From positions 1 through 64,000 of the forward strand of contig JAHJQZ010000090.1 in NCBI GenBank assembly GCA_018818925.1: 64,000 nt of DNA. Reading direction: 5' to 3'. This document shows positions 5,313 to 31,810 of the stretch, piece by piece. The position numbers and the translations under genes were made by a program. The notes beneath the pieces were generated by a model. That model was given only the letters and a program-made list of their open reading frames with translations. It searched no databases and had not been told where the DNA came from. Numbering within the stretch: position 1 is the first letter of the stretch; each line of letters starts with the position of its first letter. The DNA is from Alphaproteobacteria bacterium. Lineage in GTDB: Bacteria; Pseudomonadota; Alphaproteobacteria; Rhizobiales; Devosiaceae.

Positions 5313-5327
5313 GAACAATACCGGAAC
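5313..5327. promoter_or_regulatory. LexA (SOS) box 1 upstream of lexA
   Basis: GAACAATACCGGAAC is a perfect GAAC-N7-GAAC, the reverse complement of the alphaproteobacterial SOS box GTTC-N7-GTTC. It lies 46 bp before the lexA start codon and 11 bp before a second box in the opposite orientation. Both fit autoregulation of lexA. Confidence 0.85.
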
Positions 5328-5337
5328 ATGTACACAC

Positions 5338-5352
5338 GTTCTGTCTCTGTTC
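5338..5352. promoter_or_regulatory. LexA (SOS) box 2 upstream of lexA
   Basis: GTTCTGTCTCTGTTC is a perfect GTTC-N7-GTTC. It ends 20 bp before the lexA ATG at 5373. Because the operator lies inside the apparent upstream extension of the lexA reading frame (from 5328), it also argues that translation starts at 5373 and not earlier. Confidence 0.88.
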
Positions 5353-5372: not shown

Positions 5373-6086
5373 ATGCTGACGCGCAAGCAACACGAACTCC
5401 TGATGTTCATCCACGAACGCATGAAGGAAAGCGGCGTGCCTCCATCCTTCGACGAAATGAAGGACGCACTCGACCTCAAGTCGAAATCGGGCATCCACCG
5501 CCTCGTCACCGCGCTCGAGGAACGCGGCTTCATCCGCCGCCTGCCCAATCGCGCCCGTGCCCTCGAGGTCATCAAATTGCCCGATGCGCACAATCCTTCG
5601 CTCGGCGGGCGCCGCGCCCGTTTCGAGCCGGAGGTTATCGAGGGCCATCTCGGCAAGGTTTCAACGCCGCCGCCACGCGGCGATGGCGGCGACGACTATC
5701 AGCGTCCGGTCTCGGTACCCGTCATGGGCCGCATCGCCGCCGGCACGCCCATCGAGGCCATCCAGACCCATTCGCATACCGTCATGGTGCCGCCCGAAAT
5801 GCTCGGCGGCGGCGAGCATTTCGCCCTCGAGGTCAGGGGCGACTCGATGATCGAAGCCGGCATTTTCGATGGCGATACGGTCGTCATCCACAAGCAGGAC
5901 ACCGCCAGCAATGGCGAGATCGTCGTTGCCCTGGTCGACGACGAGGAAGCAACCCTCAAACGTTTGAGGCGCAAGGGCAATTCCGTCGCGCTCGAAGCCG
6001 CCAACCCGGCTTACGAGACGCGCATCTTCGGGCCCGACCGCGTCAAGGTGCAGGGTCGGCTGGTGGGGCTTTTGAGGAAGTACTGA
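5373..6086 (+). CDS. lexA: LexA repressor, SOS regulator with self-cleavage
   Basis: LexA represses DNA-damage genes and cleaves itself when RecA filaments form. The start at 5373 gives 237 aa beginning [17 protein letters not shown], the standard alphaproteobacterial N terminus, after a G-rich ribosome site. The winged helix-turn-helix covers residues 1-65. The scissile Ala-Gly is A123-G124 in GRIAAGTP, the catalytic serine is S158 in RGDSMI and the lysine is K196 in EATLKR. Two SOS boxes directly upstream indicate autoregulation. It is the last gene of the trp-moa-moe-lexA string; a palindromic repeat follows before the convergent dehydratase gene. Confidence 0.97.
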
Positions 6087-27290: not shown

Positions 27291-30200
27291 CTATTGCAGC
27301 CTGGCGTCGATCACCCCGTCGCTGGCGCGAATGGCGCCGGCCAGTTCACTCGTCACCCGGTAGTGGCCGGGCAGTTCGATTTCGAATTCGCGGGCGCCGC
27401 GGTCGCGAATGACGACCAGGCTCACCGTGCCCTCGCCGCCCGGCCTGAGCTGCGCCTTGATCGGCGCGAGGCAGTCCGGTTCTCCGACGAACACCGTCAG
27501 CCGCCGACCGAGCCGTTCCGCCGCGTCGGCCAGTTCGCGCGCCCCAATGAGCCTCAGGCCTATCCCGTCCGGGCGCTGGTCGGCCTCGACCTCGAGGACG
27601 ACCGACTTGCCCAGCTCCAGATGTTCGCCGAACTGGGCGATCTGTTCGGAAAACACCAGGCACTCGTAGCTGCCGGTCGGGTCCGACAGCGTGACGATGG
27701 CCATCGGCGCCCCGCGCCGCGTCCGCCGGTCCATGCGCGCCGCCACCGTGCCGGCGAGGCGCCCTGCCGCCACGCCGCCCTCCTTGACCGCGCGCTCGAA
27801 ATCGGCCCAGCGCTGCACCCGCATGCGCTCGAACAACTCGGCATACTCGTCGAGCGGATGGCCGGACAGGTGAAAGCCGATGGCGGAAAACTCGCGCTCG
27901 AGCCGTTCGGCCAGCGGCCAGGCTGTGACGCGATCCGGCAGCGGGATGGCCTGCGGCGTCCCGGTCGCGAACATGTCGACAATGCCGTCGGTAAGGTTGG
28001 ACTGGGTGCGCTGCGCCGTCCCGAGGATGGCGTCGATCACGGCGAACACCTTTTCACGCCGCGCCTCGAGACAGTCGAAGGCGCCGGCGTTGACGAGGGT
28101 TTCGAGCGTGCGCCGGTTGACCACCTTGGGATCGATGCGCGTGGCGAAATCGGCAAAATCGCGGAACGGCGCCGCCCCGCGCGCCGCGACCATGTGTTCG
28201 GCGACGTGCCGGCCGACGCCCTTGACCGCGCACAGCGAGTAAAACACCTTCTCGTCCTTGACCGAAAAACTGATCTCGGACTCGTTGACCGAGGGCGGCA
28301 TCAGCTCGATGTGCAGCCGGTCGGCCTCGCGCTTGAACTCGGCGAGCTTGTCGGTATTGCCCATGTCGAGCGTCATGGTCGCGGCGAGGAACTCGTGCGG
28401 GTAATGCGCCTTGAGATAGGCCGTCTGGTAGCTGACCAGGGCATAGGCCGCCGCGTGCGACTTGTTGAAACCGTAATTGGCGAATTTCGCCAAAAGCTCG
28501 AACACCTCGTTGGCCAGGCGCTTGCCGATGCCCTTTTCGACGGCGCCGGAGACGAAGCGCGATTTCTGCGCGTCCATCTCGGCCTTGATCTTCTTGCCCA
28601 TGGCACGCCGCAGCATGTCAGCCTCGCCGAGCGAATAGCCGGACAGCTCCTGGGCGATCTGCATCACCTGTTCCTGGTAGACGATGATGCCGTAAGTCTC
28701 CCTGAGGATCGGCTCCATCAGCGTGTGGGCGACCGAAGTGTCCTCCTTGCCGTGCTTGCGGTTGCAGAAGGTCGGGATGTTGTCCATCGGGCCGGGACGG
28801 TAAAGGGCGACGATGGCGATGATGTCCTCGAACACGTCGGGCTTCAGATCGAGCAGCACCCGCCGCATGCCCATGGATTCCACCTGGAACACCCCGGCGG
28901 TGTCGGCCCGCTGGTAAAGCTCGTAGGTCTTCTTGTCGTCGAGCGGGATGGTTTCGATGGAAAACGCCTTGTCGTGCGTCGCCCGTATCATGCCGACGGC
29001 CTTGTCGATGACCGTCAGCGTCTTCAGCCCGAGGAAGTCGAACTTGACCAGGCCCGCCGGCTCAACCCATTTGAGCGAATATTGGGTGACCGGCATGTCG
29101 GAGCGCGGATCCTTGTAGAGCGGCACCAGTTCCTCGAGCGGGCGGTCGCCGATGACGATGCCGGCCGCGTGAGTCGAGGCGTGACGATAAAGGCCCTCGA
29201 GGCTCTTGCCGATCTCCAGGAGCTCGGCGACGGTCTCGTCCTCGTCGCGCATCGCCTGCAGCCGCGGCTCGTTGTTGACCGCCTCGGCGATGGTCACCGG
29301 ATTGGCCGGATTGGCCGGCACCAGCTTGCAGATGCGGTCGACCTGGCCATAGGGCATCTGCAGGACGCGCCCGACATCCCTCAGCGCCGCCCGCGCCTGC
29401 AGCGTTCCAAAGGTGATGATCTGGGCGACCTGGTCGCGTCCGTATTTTTCCTGGACGTAGCGGATGACCTCCTCGCGGCGGTCCTGGCAGAAATCGATAT
29501 CGAAGTCCGGCATCGACACGCGCTCGGGATTGAGAAAGCGTTCGAACAGGAGGTTGTAGCGCAAGGGATCGAGATCGGTGATGGTCAGCGACCAGGCAAC
29601 GACCGAGCCGGCGCCCGAGCCGCGCCCCGGCCCGACGGGAATGCCCTGCGCCTTGGCCCATTTGATGAAGTCCGCAACGATGAGGAAATAGCCGGGAAAC
29701 TTCATGTCCCGGATCACCTTGATCTCGAATTCGAGTCGTTCCTCGTAGTCCGCGACGGTGCGTCCCGGCGCCAGCGCCGTATTGGCGAGCCGGACCTTCA
29801 GGCCCTCGCGCGCCTGCCGGGCCAGTTCCTCGCCTTCGGCCTGTTCGGCTTCCTCGTGCGTCAGGCCCGGCGCCGCCGCGAAGGTCGGCAGGATGGGATC
29901 GCGCGTCAACGGCCGGAAATGCACGCGCCGTGCGATCTCGACCGAATTGTCGAGCGCCTCGGGCAGATCGCCGAACAGGTCGACCATCTCGGCGCGCGTT
30001 TTGAAAAAATGCTCGGCCGAGAGCTTGCGCCGTTCCGACTGGGCGATCACCGTGCCGCCGGCAATGGCCAATAGCGCGTCATGCGCCTCGAAATCCTCCC
30101 GTTTCGGAAAGAACGGTTCGTTGGTCGCAACGATCGGCACGCCGCGGCGATAGGCGAAATCGATGAGCTCGGCCTCGACCGCCGCTTCGCCCGGCTTTCC

Positions 30201-30740
30201 GTGGCGCTGCAATTCGACATAGAAGCGGTCGCCGAAAACCTGCGCCAGTTTTTCCAGCCGCTTGAGGGCCTGGCCTTCCTGGCCGTTGACGAAATAGGGG
30301 TCGATCGCCCCTTCCGGCCCGCCGCTGAGGCAGATCAGCCCGTCCGTGTCGCCGTTTTCGAGCCAGGCAAGCGGCGCGATGGCACGCCCGCCCTCGCCCT
30401 CGAGATAGGCGTGGCTGACCAGCCGCGACAGGTTGGAAAAGCCGGCCCCGCTCATCGCCATCAGGACGATACCCGACTTGCCGAAGCCGCGTTCGCGTCC
30501 ACGCTCGTCCTCGGTGCCGAAATCCACCGGCAATTCGCATCCGATCAGCGGCTGGATGCCCTTGCCGGCCGCCTTTTCCGAGAATTCGAGCGCCCCGAAC
30601 AGATTGGCCGTGTCGGCAATGCCGAGCGCCGGCTGATCGTTTTCGGCGGCAAGGCCCAAAAGCCGGCCGAGCGGCAGCGCCCCTTCGAGCAGCGAATAGG
30701 CCGAGTGAACATGCAGATGGACGAAACCGGGTCCGGTCAT
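27291..30740 (-). CDS. dnaE: DNA polymerase III subunit alpha
   Basis: DnaE is the replicative polymerase. The 1149-aa protein begins MTGPGFVHLHVHSAYSLLEG, the start of the PHP domain. It carries the polymerase catalytic aspartates in MPDFDIDFC, a GPGRGSGAGSVVAW loop, helix-hairpin-helix and OB-fold regions (YECLVFSEQI) in the C-terminal third. The start at 30740 follows AAGGAAT. Length and position between rpsB and lolD match the housekeeping DnaE, not the damage-inducible DnaE2. It lies 84 bp downstream of a 32-codon ORF with three LexA boxes, so part of its transcription could be SOS-influenced unless the hairpin at 30782-30798 stops it. Confidence 0.96.
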   Translation of the reverse strand: MTGPGFVHLHVHSAYSLLEGALPLGRLLGLAAENDQPALGIADTANLFGALEFSEKAAGKGIQPLIGCELPVDFGTEDERGRERGFGKSGIVLMAMSGAGFSNLSRLVSHAYLEGEGGRAIAPLAWLENGDTDGLICLSGGPEGAIDPYFVNGQEGQALKRLEKLAQVFGDRFYVELQRHGKPGEAAVEAELIDFAYRRGVPIVATNEPFFPKREDFEAHDALLAIAGGTVIAQSERRKLSAEHFFKTRAEMVDLFGDLPEALDNSVEIARRVHFRPLTRDPILPTFAAAPGLTHEEAEQAEGEELARQAREGLKVRLANTALAPGRTVADYEERLEFEIKVIRDMKFPGYFLIVADFIKWAKAQGIPVGPGRGSGAGSVVAWSLTITDLDPLRYNLLFERFLNPERVSMPDFDIDFCQDRREEVIRYVQEKYGRDQVAQIITFGTLQARAALRDVGRVLQMPYGQVDRICKLVPANPANPVTIAEAVNNEPRLQAMRDEDETVAELLEIGKSLEGLYRHASTHAAGIVIGDRPLEELVPLYKDPRSDMPVTQYSLKWVEPAGLVKFDFLGLKTLTVIDKAVGMIRATHDKAFSIETIPLDDKKTYELYQRADTAGVFQVESMGMRRVLLDLKPDVFEDIIAIVALYRPGPMDNIPTFCNRKHGKEDTSVAHTLMEPILRETYGIIVYQEQVMQIAQELSGYSLGEADMLRRAMGKKIKAEMDAQKSRFVSGAVEKGIGKRLANEVFELLAKFANYGFNKSHAAAYALVSYQTAYLKAHYPHEFLAATMTLDMGNTDKLAEFKREADRLHIELMPPSVNESEISFSVKDEKVFYSLCAVKGVGRHVAEHMVAARGAAPFRDFADFATRIDPKVVNRRTLETLVNAGAFDCLEARREKVFAVIDAILGTAQRTQSNLTDGIVDMFATGTPQAIPLPDRVTAWPLAERLEREFSAIGFHLSGHPLDEYAELFERMRVQRWADFERAVKEGGVAAGRLAGTVAARMDRRTRRGAPMAIVTLSDPTGSYECLVFSEQIAQFGEHLELGKSVVLEVEADQRPDGIGLRLIGARELADAAERLGRRLTVFVGEPDCLAPIKAQLRPGGEGTVSLVVIRDRGAREFEIELPGHYRVTSELAGAIRASDGVIDARLQ

Positions 30741-30781
30741 GACGATTCCTTGTCCCACCCTTCTTGCCATCCGCATCCGCG

Positions 30782-30798
30782 CCGGCCAAGCCGGCCGG
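30782..30798 (-). terminator. Small GC hairpin between the 32-aa ORF and dnaE
   Basis: CCGGCC, a 5-base loop and GGCCGG lie between the small ORF stop and the dnaE start. The stem is short and has no T-run, so it is at best a weak terminator. It matters because it decides whether SOS transcription reaches dnaE. Confidence 0.25.
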
Positions 30799-30824
30799 TC
30801 CGCTCATTCACGCTTTCCACCGTC

Positions 30825-30923
30825 TCAGCCGAGCTTTGCCAGAACGTCGAGCCACAGGAACGCCGATCCGGCAAAGGCCACGATGCAGGCAAAGGCCAGT
30901 CCTTCCCTCACAAATGCGATCAT
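30825..30923 (-). CDS. Candidate 32-aa single-span membrane peptide under SOS control
   Basis: I do not recognise this peptide by sequence. The ORF starts with ATG at 30923, five bases after a perfect GGAGG (30933-30929), and ends with TGA at 30827-30825. It reads MIAFVREGLAFACIV... with one hydrophobic helix (about residues 8-25) and a short AKLG tail. Three perfect LexA boxes lie within the 93 bp upstream, the nearest ending 11 bp before the start codon. The design (about 30 aa, one membrane span, LexA boxes) is that of SidA, the SOS-induced division inhibitor of Caulobacter, but I claim no sequence homology. dnaE follows 84 bp downstream in the same direction. The alternative is that the boxes act on dnaE and the ORF is incidental; the good ribosome site argues against that. 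Confidence 0.6.
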   Translation of the reverse strand: MIAFVREGLAFACIVAFAGSAFLWLDVLAKLG

Positions 30924-30933
30924 CTTCACCTCC

Positions 30934-30948
30934 GTTCCTCTTTCGTTC
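30934..30948. promoter_or_regulatory. LexA (SOS) box A
   Basis: GTTCCTCTTTCGTTC is a perfect GTTC-N7-GTTC. It ends next to the ribosome site of the 32-aa ORF, so bound LexA would block the start region of that gene. Confidence 0.8.
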
Positions 30949-30961
30949 CTAAAACCTCTAC

Positions 30962-30976
30962 GTTCTTTTTTTGTTC
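30962..30976. promoter_or_regulatory. LexA (SOS) box B
   Basis: GTTCTTTTTTTGTTC is a perfect GTTC-N7-GTTC, 13 bp from box A and in the same orientation. Confidence 0.8.
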
Positions 30977-31000
30977 CCGTCCATCGGCAAGCAAGAAAAA

Positions 31001-31015
31001 GAACGGTTAGGGAAC
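31001..31015. promoter_or_regulatory. LexA (SOS) box C
   Basis: GAACGGTTAGGGAAC is a perfect GAAC-N7-GAAC, i.e. the same motif in the other orientation, 24 bp from box B. The flanking gene on this side (lolD) ends at 31124 pointing toward the boxes, so they can only serve the minus-strand 32-aa ORF and possibly dnaE. A TTGACC at about 31026-31021 on the minus strand could be part of a promoter, but I see no good -10. Confidence 0.8.
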
Positions 31016-31123
31016 AAATTTGGTCAACGGCAGGTTAAGGTTTGCGCCGCGACGGCGGGCAATCGGGCCGAATTCCGGCCTTCGCCGGAGTCCGGCCATC
31101 GGGCCGGAGCAGAACGTGAAACC

Positions 31124-31810
31124 CTATAGCACCAGCGGCACGACCTTCTTGTCGGCGATGGTGACGACCCGATGCGCCTTGCGCGCCAGGGCATGGTTGT
31201 GCGTCGCGATGAGCGCCGCGGCGCCCTCGTTGTCGATCAGGTCCATCAGCGCCGCGAACACCTTCTCGCTCGTTGCCGGATCGAGATTGCCGGTCGGTTC
31301 GTCGGCGAGGACGAGCTGCGGCCGGTTCGCCGCGGCGCGGGCGATAGCCACGCGCTGCGCCTCGCCTCCGGACAGCTCCGACGGCCGGTGCGCGGCGCGG
31401 TCGGCAAGCCCCATCGCCTCGAGAAGTTCGGCCGCGCGCCGTTCCGCCGCGCTCCGGCCGGCGCCGGCGATAAGCTGCGGCAGCATGACGTTTTCGAGGG
31501 CGCTGAATTCGGGCAGCAGGTGATGGAACTGGTAGACATAGCCGATGCGGTCGCGCCGCAATTGCGTGCGTGCCCGGTCCGTGAGGGCCGAACTCGCACG
31601 CCCGCAAATGTCGACCTCGCCTTGCTGCACCCGTTCGAGCAGGCCGCAGATGTGCAGAAGCGTCGACTTGCCGGCCCCGGACGGCGCCACCAGCGCCACC
31701 ATCTCGCCGGCCATGACGCTCAATGCCGCGTCCTCGAGAATGGTCAATGTCTCCGCCCCCTCGCCATAGCGGTGCGCCACGCCTTCGAGCTTCAAAAAGC
31801 ACTCACTCAT
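31124..31810 (-). CDS. lolD: Lipoprotein-releasing system ATP-binding protein
   Basis: LolD powers the extraction of outer-membrane lipoproteins from the inner membrane. The 228-aa ABC ATPase has Walker [10 protein letters not shown] at residues 42-50, the Q-loop in [10 protein letters not shown], the signature [14 protein letters not shown] and Walker [13 protein letters not shown]. It overlaps the permease gene by 8 bp (31803-31810), as partners of one transporter. The 383-bp spacer to dnaE holds the SOS boxes and the small peptide ORF. Confidence 0.94.

Follow-up and report, generated by a model that had tools for sequence, protein, structure and literature searches.

A LexA-boxed gene for a 32-residue membrane peptide before dnaE in a Devosiaceae genome, probably a positional orthologue of the division inhibitor gene sidA

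The window analysed here is a stretch of 64,000 nucleotides (nt), positions 1 to 64,000 of contig JAHJQZ010000090.1 (assembly GCA_018818925.1), from an alphaproteobacterium of the family Devosiaceae. Between lolD and dnaE on its minus strand lies a small open reading frame (ORF) preceded by three LexA boxes of the pattern GTTC-N7-GTTC. An initial annotation made from the letters alone had reported the three exact boxes, a Shine–Dalgarno (SD) sequence with an ATG five bases on, 32 codons and one hydrophobic helix; all box coordinates were confirmed, as were the other elements, on the minus strand. The minus-strand order is lolD, box A, a −35-like TGGACG, box B, a −10-like TAGAGG, box C, GGAGG, five bases, ATG, 32 codons, stop and dnaE:

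31124..31810, minus strand: lolD, next gene upstream (best family LolD, 250.7 bits, below the cut-off of 307.75)
31001..31015, no strand assigned: LexA box A, exact match, GTTCCCTAACCGTTC on the minus strand, 5' of the −35-like element
30978..30983, minus strand: −35-like TGGACG, inferred by comparison (TGGACA or TAGACA in many relatives)
30962..30976, no strand assigned: LexA box B, exact match, GTTCTTTTTTTGTTC on the plus strand, within the spacer of the promoter-like site
30955..30960, minus strand: −10-like TAGAGG, 17 nt from the −35-like element, inferred by comparison (TATAAG in many relatives)
30934..30948, no strand assigned: LexA box C, exact pattern match, GTTCCTCTTTCGTTC on the plus strand, abutting the SD
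30929..30933, minus strand: SD sequence GGAGG, 5 bases 5' of the ATG
30825..30923, minus strand: 32-codon ORF (ATG at 30923, stop ending at 30825), MIAFVREGLAFACIVAFAGSAFLWLDVLAKLG, one hydrophobic helix, SidA-like peptide, currently unannotated, frame conserved
27291..30776, minus strand: dnaE, replicative DNA polymerase III alpha, next gene downstream, start likelier at 30740

The boxes were of mixed orientation, box A being opposite to boxes B and C, and the position of box B was the same in most host-family relatives. Most host-family promoters compared had a GACA-type −35 element, a box in the spacer, a TATAAG-like −10 element, a second near-box and an SD; the −10 of the window is a weaker version of this −10. 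A consensus promoter scan of the locus reported no site, neither the −35-like nor the −10-like element. The peptide had a mean hydropathy of 2.33 over 15 residues, and a helix spanning residues 2–31 was predicted by a model, a result that carries little weight for a hydrophobic peptide. Neither the window peptide nor six relatives had a Pfam match, and no match was obtained when plasmids were searched by tblastn with a host-family peptide, or phages with a Caulobacter peptide.

The earlier claim that a triple of boxes exceeds chance held, with approximately 0.0003 triples within 82 bp expected per genome at the observed density. Exact boxes on both strands numbered six in the window against 1.89 expected, and 111 in the 3.18 Mb genome against 55 for a reversed control pattern. 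The LexA reading of the peptide boxes is supported by the fact that two of the window's three remaining matches precede lexA, approximately 25 kb from the peptide:

5313..5327, no strand assigned: LexA box before lexA, exact match
5338..5352, no strand assigned: second LexA box before lexA, exact match
5373..6086, plus strand: lexA (TIGR00498, 188.8 bits, cut-off 110.95)

Elsewhere in the host genome, one exact box was located upstream of recA and one just 5' of imuA, whose match to NF033429 was weak (35.7 bits, below the cut-off of 150). The gene after imuA had a weak Y-family polymerase match and the finger domain of a second dnaE-type gene followed approximately 2.4 kb further on, so that the cluster was read as a putative imuA-imuB-dnaE2. 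The genes lexA, recA and imuA-imuB-dnaE2 form the usual alphaproteobacterial SOS core. Because lexA (two boxes), recA (one) and imuA (one) have the same box, the GTTC-N7-GTTC boxes are, judged by their placement, the LexA operators of this genome. Among 125 box-positive loci of the survey described below, one exact box within 150 nt was present in 99, two in 25 and three in the window alone. The peptide gene has three exact operators against two for lexA and one each for recA and imuA, and this operator number therefore suggests tight LexA repression, as the initial annotation had predicted. A second partial LexA-profile match (G000:C129:8925-9164, L364; positions 112–190, 37 bits, below the cut-off) was detected in the same genome, and two further exact boxes, lying close together and oppositely oriented, were observed on the same contig at L476:1051-1085 (G000:C81:114650-114684).

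To place the ORF among relatives, the DNA upstream of dnaE was read in 269 genomes, with the DnaE N-terminus as the anchor. A locus was scored positive if a 24–50-codon ORF encoding a hydrophobic stretch was preceded by an exact box at a distance of at most 150 nt. In the host family, dnaE was found in 97 of 101 genomes, and 55 of these, the window included, were examined. Frame and box were kept in all 55, with an exact box in 44 and one-mismatch boxes in 11; the ORF lay before dnaE in 54 and after lolD in one. The automatic count before dnaE was 43/55 with an exact box and 53/55 with one mismatch allowed. One host-family locus (L070) had exact boxes and the ORF with a hydropathy just below the cut, and in genome G589 (L117) the ORF was absent before dnaE and kept after lolD with one-mismatch boxes. 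The ratio of nonsynonymous to synonymous differences (pN/pS) was 0.258 over 124 host-family pairs, with 531, 263 and 1160 substitutions at codon positions 1, 2 and 3, respectively; this set comprised 32-residue calls sharing 75% or more DNA identity, the window and L117 lying outside it. The small ORF is thus a genuine gene, conserved and under purifying selection at the amino-acid level. Loss of the frame with retention of the boxes, which the initial annotation had named as the outcome that would speak against the peptide, was thus not what the host family displayed, and the conserved frame and boxes it had proposed to look for before dnaE were present there and in much of the order.

Over all 269 genomes, ORF and exact box occurred before dnaE in 125 and, with one mismatch allowed, in 154; these and the following fractions are not unbiased, because the choice of loci depended in part on how closely their DnaE resembled that of the window, and on taking approximately 1–2 per family. 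Shuffled sequences gave 1/2690 (exact) and 31/2690 (one mismatch), and the opposite strand of the same regions 5/269 and 19/269. The rest of the order (dnaE in 196 of 199 genomes, 85 outside the host family counted) was positive in 46/85 genomes and 21/38 families with an exact box, and in 52/85 genomes with one mismatch. One sampled family, f115, was taken to be the Caulobacter family, since two Caulobacter sp. genomes contained 100% matches to the peptide of its genome G693 (L264). Here, dnaE was found in 75 of 80 genomes and 32 were used (29 of the 30 best-scoring, with L154 as the thirtieth, plus L132 and L191), of which 17 had an exact box and 28 a box with one mismatch allowed. Among class members belonging to neither the order nor f115 (dnaE in 353 of 385 class genomes, 97 counted), 19/97 genomes and 10/62 families were positive, and 21/97 genomes with one mismatch. 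Five loci with less than 250 nt upstream (L137, L163, L167, L180, L188) and two genome repeats (L237, L419) were left out. Neither the present SidA model nor Pfam recognises the window peptide. Of the 102 families sampled, 33 had an ORF with an exact box, not all of these with the SidA-like core described below. Two loci of family f172 (L144, L145) were counted with the wrong peptide by the automatic pick; in these, a hydrophobic TTG frame overlaps a SidA-like ORF in another frame. A six-sequence profile run over 385 class genomes returned mostly noise (159/385 at E ≤ 1) and was rejected as a survey tool, and two of its matches, just before dnaE in G201 and G434, proved real.

The initial annotation had called the ORF the only frame the boxes can serve. 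This was too strong, as the distance from the stop to dnaE is 49 nt if its first ATG is used and 85 nt if the likelier start is, and a search between ORF and dnaE found no terminator-like site. Boxes and ORF might thus act as a translated dnaE leader (upstream ORF) that regulates the polymerase gene in cis, the peptide itself being inert, and the location directly before dnaE in 54 of 55 host-family loci would agree with this. The gene lolD was searched for in 30 genomes without an exact match before dnaE (G589 and 29 of the order). It was found in 28 and readable in 27, and a motif-bearing peptide followed it in six (L445, L449, L451, L452, L459, L466), with exact boxes in L449, L451, L459 and L466; the other 21 readable genomes had no such ORF within about 1.3 kb or less of lolD. 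A seventh motif match after lolD (L467) had a GTG start and no box and was taken as chance. In G589 (L445), the ORF has lolD before it and folD (Pfam THF_DHG_CYH) after it, with dnaE 327 kb away. In G166 (L449) and G043 (L466), it has an exact box and the next recognisable gene is convergent, encoding a BNR-repeat protein and an alpha/beta hydrolase, respectively. In G065 (L452), a convergent Imm50-like gene separates ORF and dnaE. L451 and L459 were not used in this argument because the gene that follows has no Pfam match. A leader would always stand in cis with dnaE, whereas G589, G166 and G043 have copies beside lolD with no adjacent dnaE. Since relatives keep the ORF beside lolD and then folD or a convergent gene, the view that the peptide is simply a dnaE leader is disfavoured; purifying selection on the amino-acid sequence and the action of SidA in trans also argue against it, and we consider it very unlikely. 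That the ORF is due to chance and the LexA site, though real, acts on dnaE alone is an even more far-fetched explanation: the small size of the ORF is all that speaks for it, against which stand the frame conservation, the pN/pS, the shuffle controls and the copies without dnaE behind them.

The slot before dnaE in f115 contained mostly 29-codon ORFs. A profile of eight of these found 133 related places, of which 80 were kept, mainly in Caulobacter, Phenylobacterium and other Caulobacterales and including Caulobacter vibrioides strains (L283, L307, L324). These 80 named loci were fetched and 71 were parsed: 67 had a 29-residue frame, 70 had dnaE within 400 nt (in the other, the contig ends), and the boxes were exact in 47 and had at most one mismatch in 70. 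Three Caulobacter-type slot peptides matched the NCBIfam SidA model NF033228 with 72.4, 59.7 and 72.7 bits (cut-off 35). As the named Caulobacterales loci have the 29-residue SidA frame before dnaE, the known SOS division inhibitor SidA occupies the slot of the window peptide. The SidA-like architecture proposed in the initial annotation, which claimed no homology, gains support from this shared slot. A same-slot f115 peptide (L191) reached only 20.5 bits with the SidA model, which is therefore narrow, and current annotation would miss this peptide. L191 and L132, both from f115, are 29-residue same-slot peptides with two exact boxes.

The window peptide resembles SidA of Caulobacter in its position directly upstream of dnaE, with lolD further upstream, in GTTC-N7-GTTC-type boxes just upstream in the promoter region, in a single hydrophobic, predicted transmembrane helix, and in the start register with R-E-x-L-A and F17. 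It differs in its length (32 against 29 residues), its three exact boxes, the missing match to the NCBIfam model and the lack of the F-V-W-M block, in place of which it has a C-terminal W-x-D-x-L. The locus of C. vibrioides T5M6 (L283) further differs by an extra gene, nucleosidase-like as named by reading, in the order lolD, this gene, peptide and dnaE. Aligned ungapped from M1, the window and T5M6 peptides share M1, R6, E7, L9, A10, F17 and A29. Against a SidA-only position-specific scoring matrix (PSSM) built from the 29-residue f115 peptides, the window peptide reached p = 0.0026 in 20,000 hydropathy-preserving shuffles, and, taken as groups, host-family, other-order and other-class peptides each had a mean score that none of 1000 shuffled means reached. 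The core D/E-x2-A/S-x6-F/M was present in 37/37 host-family, 38/42 other-order, 16/17 f115 and 6/18 other-class peptides and in 3–5% of shuffles; this motif was chosen after looking at the peptides and the counts are descriptive. The PSSM and motif groups consisted of distinct peptides with exact boxes only, and one off-register pick was kept in group H and dropped only from the merged profile. The HH probability was 88% for the host family versus the rest of the order, 45% for both merged versus SidA and 30% for the rest of the order versus SidA.

Several results weigh against the reading of the gene as a sidA orthologue. The identity is only 7/29, and the window peptide did not match NF033228 even at E 10, for which reason it was not assigned to that family. 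Singly, p < 0.05 was reached under strict shuffles by only 20/37 host-family, 12/42 other-order and 6/18 other-class peptides, and the HH probability of the host family alone versus SidA was 18%. The core was present in only 6/18 boxed peptides from beyond the order and f115, some of which may therefore be unrelated replacements. Furthermore, 39 of the 85 rest-of-order genomes lacked an ORF with an exact box within 650 nt of dnaE; 29 of these were followed at lolD, where five of 26 readable genomes had the peptide. The same slot, boxes, start register and R/K-D/E-x2-A-x6-F core nevertheless indicate that the likeness is probably homology, carried by synteny with weak direct sequence support. 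The window peptide is thus a probable SidA-like variant and positional orthologue, the orthology resting on slot and regulation.

We propose that the locus is a free-standing, LexA-repressed gene for a 32-residue inner-membrane peptide, a positional orthologue of sidA, that halts septation most likely via FtsW, and put the probability of this reading at approximately three in four. The gene, its conservation, its operators and the slot common with sidA are supported by sequence, whereas derepression after damage, membrane insertion, the division block and FtsW as target are inferred, the block through FtsW from Caulobacter. LexA on boxes B and C would cover the promoter and the ribosome-binding region, with box A as a third site. 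Upon DNA damage, RecA would trigger LexA cleavage and the peptide would be made, insert in the inner membrane and hold back septal wall synthesis until repair is done, most likely by contact with FtsW. Caulobacter lexA mutants are reported to filament because sidA is derepressed (PMC12700426), and SidA is described as acting in trans with FtsW as its known target (PMC4211646, PMC12700426). Published FtsW substitutions include F145L and A246T (PMC4211646). The same job as SidA is most likely for the window peptide because slot, control and core motif are inherited.

Alternatively, a genuine SidA-family SOS membrane peptide could have acquired a different target, such as FtsN, a protease or some other protein of the envelope. 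Its recognisable likeness to SidA is confined to the N-terminal half, f115 peptides lack the W-x-D motif that is common at the C-terminus in the host family, and a contact of SidA with transmembrane helix 7 of FtsW is predicted only with low confidence in a 2026 study (PMC13396833). Against this, the host genome encodes an FtsW-type protein (G000:C24:83161-84198, L473; 299.3 bits, below the curated cut-off of 337.5), and positional orthology with the same regulation is generally expected to mean the same job, which makes a shifted target improbable. With the FtsW profile at E ≤ 0.001, this was the single FtsW/RodA-type protein of the host genome, and a separate RodA may be absent.

TisB and DinQ of Escherichia coli have the same gross design as the window peptide, being short, hydrophobic and LexA-controlled. 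For DinQ, toxicity and a single transmembrane segment in the inner membrane are described (PMC3567139). A depolarising peptide of this type would lower the proton motive force and stop growth in general rather than FtsW-dependent septation. We regard this as unlikely, given that the same Caulobacter slot holds SidA with its known target FtsW and that the N-terminal D/E-x2-A-x6-F core, a post hoc motif, is kept beyond shuffles. TisB and DinQ are type I toxins with antisense RNA; at the window locus, an Rfam scan of 30600-31200 gave no credible match to a known RNA family (one chance match, E 0.3).

Among other inhibitors, YneA, SosA and ChiZ are different proteins, clearly longer than the window peptide and not known to be related to it in sequence. 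YneA of Bacillus, SosA of Staphylococcus and ChiZ of Mycobacterium are described as damage-induced small membrane proteins that block a late division step, and YneA and ChiZ, unlike the window peptide, as having a LysM domain (PMC13396833). DidA of Caulobacter is a damage-induced small membrane inhibitor of the FtsW/I/N complex that, unlike the window peptide, is reported to have 71 residues, to be SOS-independent (DriD) and to bind FtsN (PMC4211646).

In the literature searched, no description of SidA outside Caulobacter was found among the matches listed, at the level of titles and the start of abstracts, a level that does not cover conservation statements in the founding paper of 2011. The window peptide is a candidate SOS division inhibitor for many bacteria of the class outside Caulobacter, and probably a signal of many related bacteria to stop dividing while DNA is repaired. 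Through its adjacency to dnaE, the SOS response may also increase the replicative polymerase at the same time as it stops division. It appears fairly likely that an ancestral lolD-sidA-dnaE block with LexA boxes served as an SOS division checkpoint in the ancestor of much of the class, surviving in dozens of families, unannotated and too diverged for the present model to recognise, and being lost, moved or replaced elsewhere. If so, sidA is no speciality of Caulobacter. Such genes can escape annotation because of their small size, a few dozen codons, and the narrowness of the profile; slot, box and motif provide a simple rule for finding them, and the variation across families would help to map the residues that touch FtsW. 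In family f93 (L164, L177, L216), boxed peptides before dnaE were of another sequence type, ending in ...VFWAEIVHSFTG and without the D/E-x2-A core, and a replacement by an unrelated SOS peptide is possible there.
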